DNA of 64,000 nucleotides, taken from contig NZ_JACLQD010000002.1 in assembly GCF_014243445.1 (NCBI RefSeq), positions 1 to 64,000 on the forward strand. Reading direction: 5' to 3'. Positions within the stretch are counted from its first letter, which is position 1, and each line of letters starts with the position of its first letter. Positions 4,685 to 10,010 of this stretch are shown here, piece after piece. Below the pieces are notes generated by a model. It ran no database searches. It had not been told where the DNA came from and worked only from the letters and a program-made list of their open reading frames with translations. This DNA is from Paragemmobacter straminiformis (lineage in GTDB: Bacteria; Pseudomonadota; Alphaproteobacteria; Rhodobacterales; Rhodobacteraceae). Position numbers and translations under genes: made by a program.

Positions 4685-4975
4685 CGACTGAAGCCTTTCG
4701 CGGGAAACTCTTGCAGCGCCCGTCTTTCGGATGCATCGAAAGGTTACGCGCTTCGTTGCGGCGTTTTCAAGTCGGGCAAGTCGGCCGGGCGGCGGGCGTG
4801 GCAATAGGGACTCAGGTCGCGCGACAGGCGTGGCAGGGCGGGGCGGAAAGCACTGGCGGGCGCTGTGGCCTGCGGATAGCGTCCGCTGCGTTAAGGTTCA
4901 TGAAGGGGCGGTGGCGCCTTGGCACATCCTGCACAAAGCATCGGACCGGCCCGGGGCGAACCGCCTGCGCCGGAC
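4685..4975. other. divergent intergenic region between two glycan operons
   Basis: This 291-bp stretch separates the minus-strand GT2/GtrA operon from the plus-strand membrane protein, so it should hold both promoters. No gene, strong repeat, hairpin terminator or clear -35/-10 pair could be picked out by eye. Confidence 0.4.
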
Positions 4976-6874
4976 ATGGGGGGCGGTGTCGTGCGGGCTG
5001 CGGTCTGCGCGCTTCTGGTCGTGGCACTTTGGGCCGTGACGCGCCCCTATGAAGGCTATGTCCATGACGCGCAGCTTTATCTGGTGCAGGCCCTGCACCG
5101 GCTGGAGCCTGCGCGCTATGCGGCCGACCTGTTCTTTGCCTATGGCTCGCAGGACGGGTATTCGGTGTCCTCGGCGCTTTATGCGCCCCTTGTCGCGGCA
5201 TTGGGAGAAAGCCGGGCGCATCTGGTGGCGCTGGTCGTCGGCTATGCCCTGTGGCTTTCGGGGCTGTGGGTTCTGGCGCGGACGATCTTTGCAAGCGGAA
5301 GCGCGGCGGCGGCGGCGGTTCTTGCGGTCATAGCGCTTGTGCCGATCTACAATCCGGGCGCCTTGCACTACGGGGAATCCAGCGTAAGCCCAAGGCTTTA
5401 CGTCGAGGCGACCAGCTTCTTTGCCATTGCGGCCATCTGTCTGGGTCGCAACCTTGCGGCCGGGGTGCTGCTGGTCTGCGCCTTTGCGTTGCACCCGATC
5501 ATGACGCTGCCGACGCTGGCACTGGTGGCGGTGCTGCGCTTTCGTCTGACCGTCTTGCTGGCCGTTGCGGCGGCTGGTCTGGGCGCGGTGCTGGCGCTGG
5601 CCTTTGCCGGCATCGATCCTTTTGTGCGCATCCTGCAACGGATGGATGCCGAATGGTTCGGCGTGGTGCAGGTGCGGACCCCTGCGGCGCTGGTGCAGAA
5701 CTGGATTCTGCCTGCCTGCCTGCTTCTGGTGTTTCCGGTGGTCTCGTGCGGGCTGGTCGCGCTGCGCGGCACGCCGATGCAGGCGCGTCTGGCGCGGGCG
5801 GTGCTGCTGCTTTGCCCCGCGCTGGTGCTGACGAGCTGGCTTGCGGGCGAAGTTCTGATGAACCTTCTTTTCCTGAACCTGCAACTCTGGCGGGGCCTCT
5901 GGCTGTTGACGCTGGCGGGAAACTGTCTGGTTCCGGCCGCCTATGCGCTGTTGCCGCGCGAAGGGGGCAGCCGCGGGCTTTTTCTGGCGGCGGTGGTCGT
6001 GAACCTGTGCGAGGCGCGCTTCGGCATTGCGGTGATGCCCTTTGCCTCGGCCGGTTTTGCGCTGGCATCGGCTTGCACGCTGGCCGCGACAGGGGGGGGG
6101 CGGTGGTTCCATTCGGCGGCGCGGATCGGCGGCTCCGCCTTTGCGGCGGTTGCGACCTTGCTGTTTCTTGGAGAGGTCGCCGCCGTCGCCTTGCAGCCAA
6201 GGCTTCTGACCGTGCTTGACGTGTTGCAGCGCGTGGCGCTTGTGCTGGCGGGGGGGGCGCTGTTGGTGCTGGCCGCGCGGCGCGGGCGGCAGATCGGTGT
6301 CGTGCTGCCGGTTCTGGCCTTGGGCGTGGCGGTCTGGGCGGGCTTGCTGGCGGACCAGCGCACCAATCGCATGGCCTTTCTGACGGGAGCGGCGCCGGTC
6401 GATCCGGCCTTTGTGGCGGCCACCGAAGGCAAGACCGTCTATTGGGAGGGGGGGCTTGAATTCCTGTGGTTCCGGCTGCGGCAGCCCAGCTATTTTTCAT
6501 GCTATCAGGCGGCGGGGTCGATGTTCTTTCGGGGAACGGCGATCGAACATGCGCGGCGTGCTGCGGTGCTGCGGCGGCTGAACACCTCGGATTTCGCGCT
6601 CGAGCCGGACGCCTTTTGCCCGCAACGTGCCGACCCGCTGTTCGAGGGGCCGGCCAGAGGGGCGCAGCTTGCCGATGTCTGCCGCGCCTTGCCCGAGCTT
6701 GACGTGCTTGTCCTGCGGGCCGATCTGCCCGATGTGCCGCATCTGCGCTGGCAACCGGGGTTCGATGTGCCCGCCTCGGGTATGCCGGTGCCGCCCAAGG
6801 ATGCGCGGCCCGTCTATGTGCCGGGCAAGCCAAGGGGGTTCTACAACCTTTACCGCTGCGCCGACCTGCGCTGA
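4976..6874 (+). CDS. large polytopic membrane protein, glycosyltransferase-like
   Basis: A 632-residue protein beginning with a hydrophobic signal-anchor-like segment (VVRAAVCALLVVALWAV) and carrying roughly a dozen membrane segments, with a soluble C-terminal domain from about residue 470. The first periplasmic loop contains the acidic YEGYVHDAQLY motif, reminiscent of GT-C proteins, and there is a YWEGG segment near the C-terminal domain. It is not assigned to a named family. The ATG at 4976 is preferred over a TTG at 4919 because the hydrophobic segment follows it directly, but no strong ribosome site supports either. Its position opposite a GT2/GtrA cassette suggests a surface glycan or O-antigen polymer job. 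Confidence 0.55.
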   Translation: MGGGVVRAAVCALLVVALWAVTRPYEGYVHDAQLYLVQALHRLEPARYAADLFFAYGSQDGYSVSSALYAPLVAALGESRAHLVALVVGYALWLSGLWVLARTIFASGSAAAAAVLAVIALVPIYNPGALHYGESSVSPRLYVEATSFFAIAAICLGRNLAAGVLLVCAFALHPIMTLPTLALVAVLRFRLTVLLAVAAAGLGAVLALAFAGIDPFVRILQRMDAEWFGVVQVRTPAALVQNWILPACLLLVFPVVSCGLVALRGTPMQARLARAVLLLCPALVLTSWLAGEVLMNLLFLNLQLWRGLWLLTLAGNCLVPAAYALLPREGGSRGLFLAAVVVNLCEARFGIAVMPFASAGFALASACTLAATGGGRWFHSAARIGGSAFAAVATLLFLGEVAAVALQPRLLTVLDVLQRVALVLAGGALLVLAARRGRQIGVVLPVLALGVAVWAGLLADQRTNRMAFLTGAAPVDPAFVAATEGKTVYWEGGLEFLWFRLRQPSYFSCYQAAGSMFFRGTAIEHARRAAVLRRLNTSDFALEPDAFCPQRADPLFEGPARGAQLADVCRALPELDVLVLRADLPDVPHLRWQPGFDVPASGMPVPPKDARPVYVPGKPRGFYNLYRCADLR

Positions 6875-6958: not shown

Positions 6959-7699
6959 ATGCGGATCGCGATCCTGACGGATATTCATGCCAACCGCGAG
7001 GCGTTCGAAGCCGTTCTGTCCGATGTCGCGGCGCGCAAGCTCGACCGGATCATCTGCCTTGGCGATATCGTCGGCTACGGGCCGGACCCTGTCTGGTGTG
7101 TCGAACGGGTGATGCGGCTGGTCGATGAGGGGGCCTTTTGCATCAAGGGCAACCATGACAGCGCGGTGGGGCGAAGCGACGAGCATCTGAATGTCACGGC
7201 GTTGCGGGCGATCAACTGGACGCGGCCCCTGCTGTCGGAGGACCACAAGACCTTTCTGGCCGGGCTGCCGATGCGGCACGAGGAGGGCGAGCTTCTGTGC
7301 GTGCATGCCAGTGCCAATGATCCGGCGGACTGGATCTATGTCACCAACGAAAGCAGCGCGATGGGATCGTTCCGCGTGTCCGAGGCGCGGGTGATCCTTG
7401 TCGGGCACCGCCATGTTCCGGCGCTTTACAGCTGCGACATGGGCGGGCGGGTCAAGGGCCAGCGGGTGGTGGCGGGGATGGCGATGCCGCTGATCCGGTC
7501 GCGCCGCTGGCTGGGGGTTGTCGGTTCGGTGGGCCAGCCGCGCGACGGGGTGGCGCAGGCGAATTACGCGATACTTGATCTGGCGCAGAACGAACTTTCA
7601 TTCCGCCGTGTACCCTATGACGTGCAAAGGACCGTGGGAAAGCTGCGGGCGGCGGGTCTGCCCGAGTCCCTTGCCATGCGGTTGAACTGGGGGACGTGA
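6959..7699 (+). CDS. calcineurin-like metallophosphoesterase (YfcE/MJ0936 type)
   Basis: The 246-residue protein shows the full two-metal phosphoesterase signature: Asp8-x-His10 in LTDIHAN, GDIVGYGPDP (Asp36), GNHDSAVG (residues 64-71), a VHAS histidine and a GHRHVP motif. The family hydrolyses phosphomono- or diesters, and some members remove phosphate from proteins. ATG 6959 follows an AGGGGGCGGGGG ribosome site; a longer reading from 6911 adds 16 residues before the first beta strand and is rejected. The next gene, a Ser/Thr kinase, starts only four bases after the stop, so the two are almost certainly co-transcribed, raising the possibility of a kinase/phosphatase pair. Confidence 0.88.
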   Translation: MRIAILTDIHANREAFEAVLSDVAARKLDRIICLGDIVGYGPDPVWCVERVMRLVDEGAFCIKGNHDSAVGRSDEHLNVTALRAINWTRPLLSEDHKTFLAGLPMRHEEGELLCVHASANDPADWIYVTNESSAMGSFRVSEARVILVGHRHVPALYSCDMGGRVKGQRVVAGMAMPLIRSRRWLGVVGSVGQPRDGVAQANYAILDLAQNELSFRRVPYDVQRTVGKLRAAGLPESLAMRLNWGT

Positions 7700-7703
7700 C
7701 GCC

Positions 7704-9119
7704 ATGATGATACGCCCGAGCGAGGGTCTCGAGATCGACGGCTTCGCGCTGGGGGCCTGCCTGCACAAGGGCGGGTTCGCCACGATCTGGAAGGTGACGC
7801 ATCCCGACCACGCACAGGCGATGGTGATGAAGGTGCCGACGATCCTTGACGGCTATGACGCGCCGACCATCGTGGGGTTCGAGGTGGAGCAGATGATCCT
7901 GCCGCGCCTGTCGGGCCCCTATGTGCCCAAGCTGATCGCGGTGGGCGATTTTCGGGTCATGCCCTATGTGGTGACCGAAGAGATCGAGGGCAATTCGCTT
8001 CTTGCGCTGTTCGATGCGGCACCTTTGCCGCTGTCGGAACTGATCGAGACGGCGGCGCGGATGACCGAGGCCGTCCACGAGTTGCACAAGCAGCATGTGG
8101 TGCATCTGGACCTGAAGCCCGCGAATTTCCTGCAACGGCCAACGGGCGAGATGGTCTGCATCGATTTCGGCCTGTCGCGGCACGACCAGTTGCCCGATCT
8201 GCTGGACGAGGAATTCACCATTCCGATGGGGACGTTTCCCTATATCGCGCCCGAGCAGTATCTGCGGCAGCGCGACGATCTGCGCAGCGACATCTTCGCG
8301 CTGGGCGCGATCATCTACGAAGGGGCGACGGGCAAGATGCCCTTTGGCAAGCCCGAGCGGCTGCGGGCCGTGCGCAAGCGGTTGTGGCGCGATCCGGTGC
8401 CGCCGCGCGCCATCGACCCGCGCATTCCGGAATGGTTGCAAGAGATCATCCTGCGCGCTCTCGAGGTGGACCCCGCCAGACGCTACCAGTCGGCGGCGCA
8501 GATGTTGTTCGATTTGCAGCATCCCTCGCAGGTGCGGCTGACCGAACGCGGGCGCAAGATGAAGCAGGACGGTGCCCTTGCCGTTTGGCGGCGCTGGCGG
8601 GCGATGCGCAAGCTGCGCGGCTTTGCCCCGCCCGCGGGGATGAGTGCGCAGATCAGCAAGGCGCCGGTCATGATGGTCGCGGTGGACCTGTCGCCCGAGA
8701 TGGAGGGGCTGAGCCTGCTTTTGCTGTTGCAGGTGAAACGGATGCTGTCGAGCCAGCCGGATGCGCGGGTGGCTTGTGTCAATGTCATCAAGACGGCGCG
8801 GATCGGGATCGACCCGACCACGACCGAGGATGGCGACCATCTGCATGTCTCGCGGCTGATCGCGCTGCGGGCCTGGGCGCAAGACCTCGACCTGCCTGAC
8901 GAGCGGCTGACCTTTACCATCCTCGAGCATTCCAACCCCGCGCAGGCGATCGTGGAACATGCGGCCAAGAACCAGATGGACCATATCGTGATGGGTGCGC
9001 GCAGCCATTCCGCCTCGCGCCGCTATTTGGGGTCGGTTTCCTCGCAGGTGGTTGCGGAATCGTCGTGCAGCGTCACGGTGATCCGTCTGCCGGCCGTTGC
9101 GGCGGCCGAGGCGGCCTAG
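7704..9119 (+). CDS. cytosolic Ser/Thr protein kinase fused to a UspA domain
   Basis: The 471-residue protein has an N-terminal Hanks-type kinase (about 10-300): an atypical nucleotide loop (HKGGFATIWK), Lys43, Glu60, catalytic HLDLKPAN (Asp136, Lys138, Asn141), metal-binding DFG (Asp154) and IAPEQY. All catalytic residues are present. HLD replaces the usual HRD, so it is not an RD-type kinase. From about residue 318 a universal stress protein domain follows, ending with the nucleotide-binding pattern MGARSHSASRRYLGSVS. There is no transmembrane segment or external sensor, unlike PknB kinases, so the UspA part may be the sensor. ATG 7704 or 7707 could be the start. The partner phosphoesterase lies four bases upstream. 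Confidence 0.9.
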   Translation: MMIRPSEGLEIDGFALGACLHKGGFATIWKVTHPDHAQAMVMKVPTILDGYDAPTIVGFEVEQMILPRLSGPYVPKLIAVGDFRVMPYVVTEEIEGNSLLALFDAAPLPLSELIETAARMTEAVHELHKQHVVHLDLKPANFLQRPTGEMVCIDFGLSRHDQLPDLLDEEFTIPMGTFPYIAPEQYLRQRDDLRSDIFALGAIIYEGATGKMPFGKPERLRAVRKRLWRDPVPPRAIDPRIPEWLQEIILRALEVDPARRYQSAAQMLFDLQHPSQVRLTERGRKMKQDGALAVWRRWRAMRKLRGFAPPAGMSAQISKAPVMMVAVDLSPEMEGLSLLLLLQVKRMLSSQPDARVACVNVIKTARIGIDPTTTEDGDHLHVSRLIALRAWAQDLDLPDERLTFTILEHSNPAQAIVEHAAKNQMDHIVMGARSHSASRRYLGSVSSQVVAESSCSVTVIRLPAVAAAEAA

Positions 9120-9122
9120 GCG

Positions 9123-10010
9123 CTACCGCACCGTGCTGAGCCGGACACCGGCAAGGGTGACGGCAAGGCCAAGCCCCATGGGCAGGGTGAGAGGTTCCGC
9201 GAACAGTGCCCAGGCCCAGATCATGGTCACCGGCGGGCTGAGGTAGATCGCGCTGCTGACCTGCGCTGCGGGATAGATGCGCAGGGCGATGAAATAGGTG
9301 CTGTAGCAAAAGAAGGTGGCGAAAAGCACCAGCCAGCCGACGCCGAACCAGAAATGCGGATCGGACGGCGGGGCCAGTCCGCCCGAGACATGCAGGCAGA
9401 TGCCGAAAAGCCCCGCCGCCGTCAGGCATTGGATCGCAAGGCTTTGATGCACAGGCATATGCACCGCGCCGATCTTCTTTTGCAGCACGCTCGCCACGGC
9501 AAAGACCAGCATGGCGGCGACCGTCAGCAGATAGGCCCAAAACGGCGCGGTCCCGAGGCGCAGCCCGCCCGCCGAGGCGATGACCACGCCTGCGGCGCCA
9601 AGCGCGGTTCCGAGCCATTGCCGCCCCTTCAGCGGCTGGCGCAGCACCGGCGCGGACAGAACCGCGATGGCAAGGGGAACAAGGTCCGAGATCAGCGCGA
9701 CAAGGCCGGTCGGCACGCGCTGCCCGATGGCAAGGGCGAAACCGCCAAGGTACAGGAACATGATGGCGCAGCCGAACCCCATTTGCTGCAAAAGGGCGCG
9801 CAGGCCGATGCGCGGGCCGATCATCAGCGCGGGCAGAAGCAGCAGCGCGCCCGCCAGAAGATTGCGCCAGAACAGCACCTGAAACACCGTCGCATGGTCG
9901 CTGGCATAGCGTATGCCTATGAAGCCCGAAGCCCAGCTTGTGACCAGCGCCGCCGCGAGCAGCGGCCACAAAAGCCGGCGCAGCACGGGCGCAGAGGGGG
10001 CGGTGGTCAT
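9123..10010 (-). CDS. EamA/RhaT-family exporter (DMT superfamily)
   Basis: The 295-residue protein has ten hydrophobic segments arranged as two EamA repeats. Family-typical stretches include FIGIRYASDHATVFQVLFWRN in the first repeat and AIYLSPPVTMIWAWALFAEP in the second. Such proteins export amino acids or other small metabolites, and the substrate cannot be told from sequence. The gene converges on the kinase gene with only three bases between stop codons. ATG 10010 begins right before the first membrane helix and no longer start is plausible. Confidence 0.85.
   Translation of the reverse strand: MTTAPSAPVLRRLLWPLLAAALVTSWASGFIGIRYASDHATVFQVLFWRNLLAGALLLLPALMIGPRIGLRALLQQMGFGCAIMFLYLGGFALAIGQRVPTGLVALISDLVPLAIAVLSAPVLRQPLKGRQWLGTALGAAGVVIASAGGLRLGTAPFWAYLLTVAAMLVFAVASVLQKKIGAVHMPVHQSLAIQCLTAAGLFGICLHVSGGLAPPSDPHFWFGVGWLVLFATFFCYSTYFIALRIYPAAQVSSAIYLSPPVTMIWAWALFAEPLTLPMGLGLAVTLAGVRLSTVR

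Follow-up and report, generated by a model that had tools for sequence, protein, structure and literature searches.

Results

The phosphoesterase and kinase genes

The window, which is the whole stretch of 64,000 nucleotides that was analyzed, is part of contig C9 in a genome of 4.1 Mb, the named relatives of which belong to the Rhodobacteraceae (Rhodobacter, Fuscovulum, and Gemmobacter). It contains a gene for a calcineurin-like metallophosphoesterase (MPE) and, directly downstream, a gene for a soluble Hanks-type kinase fused with a universal stress protein (USP) domain, hereafter referred to as kinase-USP (Table 1). The two open reading frames and the four bases between them were found just as an earlier note on this DNA had described. 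Judging from this spacer and from the short spacing in relatives, the two genes appear to constitute a coupled operon. Many long antisense open reading frames cover both genes and look like by-products of the local G+C content of ~66%. No RNA family or tRNA was found in the window.

Table 1. Positions of the genes, domains, and motifs discussed in this study, numbered from the first nucleotide of the window.
Feature	Position	Strand	Remarks
Calcineurin-like metallophosphoesterase, MPE (PF00149/PF12850)	6959..7699	+	246 aa; ATG at 6959, stop ends at 7699
MPE metal motif DxH (D8, H10)	6980..6988	+	Invariant in 26/26 homologues
Spacer between MPE and kinase-USP	7700..7703	+	cgcc, exactly 4 bases
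Kinase-USP fusion, soluble	7704..9119	+	471 aa; ATG at 7704, stop ends at 9119
Hanks-type kinase domain, non-RD, ~residues 5-281	7716..8546	+	Pfam PF00069 and structural match
Kinase catalytic loop HLDLKPAN, Leu for Arg in HxD	8103..8126	+	Alignment, 26 homologues
USP domain, residues 323-461	8670..9086	+	Pfam PF00582
USP nucleotide loop, partial G-AR-S-(8x)-GS, residues 431-444	8994..9035	+	Alignment

The metallophosphoesterase

The MPE matched both Metallophos and Metallophos_2 of Pfam above the curated cut-offs (1.4e-14 for each), and its start codon is backed by homologues. The ligands of calcineurin-like MPEs, i.e., DxH, GD, GNH, H, and GHxH, were all found in 26 of 26 homologues. The earlier statement that both phosphoesterase metal motifs are present was thus borne out by eight metal/catalytic residues, D8, H10, D36, N65, H66, H116, H150, and H152, which are invariant in this set. 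The AF2 model of the enzyme (pLDDT 96.5) was matched best, among solved structures, by 3RQZ, a metallophosphoesterase from Sphaerobacter thermophilus, over the full length with a TM of 0.88 and 38-39% identity. The two proteins also share a C-terminal GQPRDG...GLPESL region, and the title of the 3RQZ entry gives no function. The second match was SapH (Spr1479; 3QFM/3QFN), a streptococcal asymmetric Ap4A hydrolase/phosphodiesterase that has the MPE fold in common with the window protein (TM ~0.74), but the identity of ~23-24% means that the substrate cannot be transferred from SapH. Archaeal proteins of unknown function also match the model after 3RQZ, and 2qjc, a putative diadenosine tetraphosphatase, is likewise a match. 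PPP phosphatases rank far lower (TM ~0.5), and the assignment of the MPE as a PPP phosphoprotein phosphatase was rejected because the GDxVDRG/GNHE signatures are absent; the alignments read GDxVGY and GNHD, and GNHD, not GNHE, is retained in the 26 homologues. Distant homologues on plasmids adjoin unrelated genes in the four records that were examined, and because the wider MPE family is found in such neighborhoods, a small-molecule substrate fits at least as well as phosphoproteins.

A related MPE was also observed behind an N-terminal domain of ~250 aa in family f52 and its relatives (L071-L075, L077, L078, L080, L082, and L085-L101), as exemplified by the fusion at L073:4326-5903 on the minus strand. 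K, E, D-x4-N, and DDD are (nearly) invariant in this domain in 26 proteins, with kinase-like spacings. No significant match was obtained when the domain was compared with the kinase of kinase-USP (hhalign probability 0.2%), with PDB sequences, and with Pfam; the fusion might possibly join an atypical kinase to a phosphoesterase of the family to which the MPE belongs, which we take as a lead only. DUF2252 was considered as a relative of the domain on the basis of one protein compared only by eye, and was set aside.

The kinase domain

The kinase region matched Pkinase of Pfam above the curated cut-off (1.3e-26, residues 22-266) and has the profile, Lys, Glu, HxD, Asn, DFG, and APE that define Hanks-type kinases. 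K43, E60, E62, H134, D136, K138, D154, G156, and E184 do not vary among the 26 homologues, and N141 is Asn in 22 of them. All catalytic residues of both the MPE and the kinase are under constraint in the homologue alignments. The earlier claim that every kinase catalytic residue is present stands for these key residues, but the RD arginine is replaced by Leu and the glycine loop is atypical. Every one of the 26 homologues has L, F, or H at residue 135, just before D136, and the kinase is therefore of the non-RD type. The glycine loop reads HKGGFA in the window, not GxGxxG, and HxGG[FM]A in 25 of the 26 homologues, while the remaining one has P for H. The enzyme accordingly lacks both the arginine and the loop of the canonical RD subtype. 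Because non-RD and glycine-loop variants do occur among active kinases, these departures mark a subtype and do not exclude the protein from the Hanks family. In the activation loop, T172 varies among the 26 sequences, whereas H160, P164, D165, and L166 are invariant. Non-RD kinases are usually independent of activation-loop phosphorylation, and since T172 is not conserved, a phosphatase may not be required for the kinase itself.

No membrane helix was found in kinase-USP, the highest 19-residue Kyte-Doolittle mean being only 1.39 for a segment within the USP domain, which agrees with the earlier view that the kinase has no membrane anchor. With the AF2 model of the fusion protein (pLDDT 87.3), the fold search, which covered only the kinase domain (residues 4-284) even though the full model was used, gave Mycobacterium tuberculosis PknB as the best structural match (Z 28.8, rmsd 2.6, 256 residues aligned). 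The genome holds two Pkinase matches, and the other Hanks-type kinase (G000:C10:563099-568715) is located ~4.3 kb from the sole PP2C_2 match; because both of these lie elsewhere, kinase-USP has no PP2C partner beside it.

The USP domain

The C-terminal region matched Usp of Pfam above the cut-off (1.5e-16, over the residues given in Table 1), which places it among universal stress proteins; the fold assignment rests on Pfam and sequence matches. Its nucleotide loop reads G-2x-S-8x-GS, as compared with the ATP-binding consensus G-2x-G-9x-G(S/T). The nucleotide-binding pattern that had been described as kept is therefore kept in part: the first Gly and the GS are present in the window, but the second Gly is Ser and the spacing is eight residues. 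All 26 sequences have the first Gly and five have the second, and the GS is missing in five members (two of family f57 and three of f81). Residues 436-440, which belong to the loop, have pLDDT values below 50 in the AF2 model. In a survey of 26 USP structures, the second Gly was found in only half, and proteins with incomplete motifs were shown to bind nucleotides: NE1028 binds AMP with an 8-residue spacing (G-SH-G-8x-GST), and KPN01444, whose motif is partly degenerate, binds ATP (PMC3673472). Nucleotide binding by the USP domain of the window is therefore plausible, but, as far as the sequences tell, such binding is not common to the whole family of these USP domains.

Conservation of the gene pair

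The two genes occur in the same order and on the same strand at the window and at 32 related loci from at least eight families of Proteobacteria, with a spacing of -11 to +29 nt, mostly 1-7 nt, at the related loci. They are thus adjacent, co-oriented, and conserved jointly, as would be expected of a kinase-phosphatase operon. The pairing had earlier been deduced from adjacency at a single locus, with common separation of the homologues named as the finding that would speak against it; the opposite was found, and joint presence and absence now adds to adjacency. Six of 19 genomes of the genus carry the kinase, with the MPE adjacent in every one; for G015, one of these genomes, the match covers only MPE residues 75-245, at the end of the sequence. 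When the species-genome collection was scanned, 13 loci were found, and at each of the 12 whose sequence extends to the position of the MPE gene, that gene is directly upstream. A profile search of 299 genomes of the phylum gave 16 more kinase-USP proteins of full or nearly full length from seven further families (f26, f30, f31, f33, f46, f57, and f81); those that were aligned share 34-50% identity with the protein of the window, and the MPE is directly upstream in 15 of the 16. Among the 299 genomes, 16 have both proteins, one the kinase only, and one the MPE only, and the reverse search found the kinase in 16 of the 17 genomes that have an MPE of this clade (at least 338 bits; the next best match had 190). 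The plasmids of Rhodobacter CZR27, Pseudoroseomonas, and Bosea also carry the pair, adjacent and annotated as 'metallophosphoesterase family protein' and 'bifunctional serine/threonine-protein kinase/universal stress protein', that of Bosea spanning the origin of the record; the pair on a Shinella plasmid is unannotated and was detected by profile.

The three departures from joint presence comprise two decayed remnants and one genome lacking only the kinase. In G305 (L048, ~9350-9500), a deletion has left the MPE start, MKIAILSDI, running into kinase DNA from approximately residue 41, with the kinase remnant apparently in another frame. A seventh genome of the genus, G009 (L058, 6661-7120), retains only a relic of the MPE, shortened and frameshifted, whose open frame extends into a different downstream protein, and gave no kinase match. 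G246 (L070, 4600-5425) has an intact MPE with a TTGATATCCATCAA box upstream and no kinase similarity downstream.

The protein distance matrices of the MPE and the kinase are correlated (r 0.89; none of 2000 permutations as high), and the trees largely agree, with eight supported splits in common and one contradicted; the correlation arises partly from the common descent of the hosts, and it therefore shows joint inheritance, not binding. When all open reading frames in stretches of at most 20 kb surrounding 34 loci were compared, no third gene was conserved with the pair across families; what recurs is the pair and its antisense shadows, along with scattered common genes such as those for transporters. 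Chance adjacency, or hitch-hiking of the pair on a conserved chromosomal block, finds a basis in the block shared with the closest relative, L013, and in nothing else. The pair persists while its flanks differ almost everywhere, and the 32 related loci with unlike flanks refute chance adjacency, so that we regard an explanation of this kind as vanishingly improbable. Comparison of the loci strongly supports the pair as a real conserved unit.

Neighboring genes and regulation

Just upstream of the pair, positions 4919-6874 (plus strand) encode a protein of 651 aa with a hydrophobic look and no Pfam match. Larger operons including this presumed membrane protein or the downstream EamA gene were considered and rejected, as neither neighbor is conserved even in most close relatives. 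A box of the FNR/FixK type, TTGA-N6-TCAA, precedes the MPE gene by 58-97 nt in members of f31, f33, and f57, at six loci (L044, L045, L046, L051, L049, and L055) and, by eye, at a seventh in G246; the chance rate estimated from shuffles is 0 to 0.015 per locus. Such control was rejected for the window, where no box occurs within 350 nt upstream, and no box was seen in its genus. In Rhodobacter CZR27, the pair is near nos denitrification genes. The boxes in three families, together with this proximity, suggest that the pair is likely under low-oxygen control in some lineages. The boxes also suggest shared regulation, as would be expected if the MPE and the kinase served one stress response without antagonism and the operon meant co-expression only; the coupling is, however, unusually tight and exclusive, and the order and short spacing are constant over deep divergence, which makes this reading an unlikely one.

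Discussion

The present study describes two genes, with their domains and catalytic residues, whose pairing is deeply conserved. The fusion of a kinase with a USP domain is not new in itself: kinases with a USPA domain were reported in 2005 in Mesorhizobium loti and Bradyrhizobium japonicum (PMC1262709), the combination was listed as Proteobacteria-specific in 2010 (PMC2877116), and 'bifunctional serine/threonine-protein kinase/universal stress protein' is a standard name at NCBI. The proteins in those reports have the same domain combination and come from Proteobacteria, including Mesorhizobium and Bradyrhizobium, as seen in the passages available from the two papers, which do not mention an adjacent MPE, a non-RD loop, or a degenerate USP motif. 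No paper on the MPE/kinase-USP pair was found in the open-access literature, which misses most subscription journals, nor was any characterization of kinase-USP proteins found in the literature searchable. The conserved pairing with the MPE is the new element.

In the PknB/PstP and PrkC/PrpC systems, the gene of a membrane-anchored Hanks-type kinase with outer sensor domains lies next to that of a PP2C (PPM) phosphatase. The pair described here is similar in that a Hanks kinase gene, whose product has a PknB-like fold, lies beside a gene for a metal-dependent phosphoesterase, but the latter is an MPE, not a PP2C, and the kinase is soluble and carries a USP domain. Stress signaling by such a soluble kinase is plausible. 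The best explanation, which we put forward tentatively, is that the two proteins form one signaling unit in which kinase-USP is opposed by the MPE. We infer that the soluble non-RD Ser/Thr kinase would phosphorylate cytosolic targets, that the USP domain would set its activity via adenine-nucleotide binding or dimerization and not via activation-loop phosphorylation, and that the translationally coupled MPE would oppose it. The survival of the MPE without the kinase in G246, when no intact kinase was seen without the MPE, fits the role of an antagonist, although these are single cases.

As for the route of the antagonism, dephosphorylation of the kinase or of its targets might be the likeliest, with a probability somewhat short of even. 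The dedicated phosphatase proposed earlier stays as one of two readings, given that the MPE has no PPP signature and that, among its relatives with a known activity, the nearest hydrolyzes Ap4A. The next likeliest route, rather unlikely in our estimation, casts the MPE as a hydrolase of nucleotides or a phosphodiesterase, acting for example on Ap4A or another adenine dinucleotide and clearing the ligand sensed by the USP domain, thereby controlling the kinase indirectly. The position of SapH as the best solved match after 3RQZ and the match of 2qjc would favor this route, as would the resemblance of the USP loop to the partial motifs of NE1028 and KPN01444, which bind AMP or ATP (PMC3673472). 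The USP domain of KdpD, another sensor kinase, is described as a nucleotide-responsive module and binds c-di-AMP (PMC4686210, PMC8214093). KdpD thus resembles kinase-USP in carrying a USP nucleotide sensor on a kinase, but it is a histidine/atypical serine kinase for potassium homeostasis and not a Hanks kinase. A non-RD kinase is compatible with ligand control. The low identity with SapH, however, argues against the clearing of a ligand, as do the lack of conservation of the second Gly and the loss of GS in f81 and part of f57, whose members still have the MPE. Nucleotide sensing by the UspA domain, as claimed earlier, is likewise possible for the window, but its motif is degenerate and is lost in some relatives. 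A self-contained nucleotide-gated switch, in which the stress signal is an adenine (di)nucleotide sensed by the USP domain and destroyed by the co-encoded MPE, is a doubtful proposal; if true, one operon would encode a sensor, an effector kinase, and a signal eraser.

To our knowledge, the kinase-phosphatase pairs known in bacteria combine a PP2C phosphatase with a membrane-anchored sensor. A soluble kinase-USP that is widespread and has an MPE as its partner would differ from them in design. Such a unit would assign a function to a USP domain located within a Hanks kinase, and the MPE clade, whose nearest solved structure is 3RQZ, would gain a substrate class.
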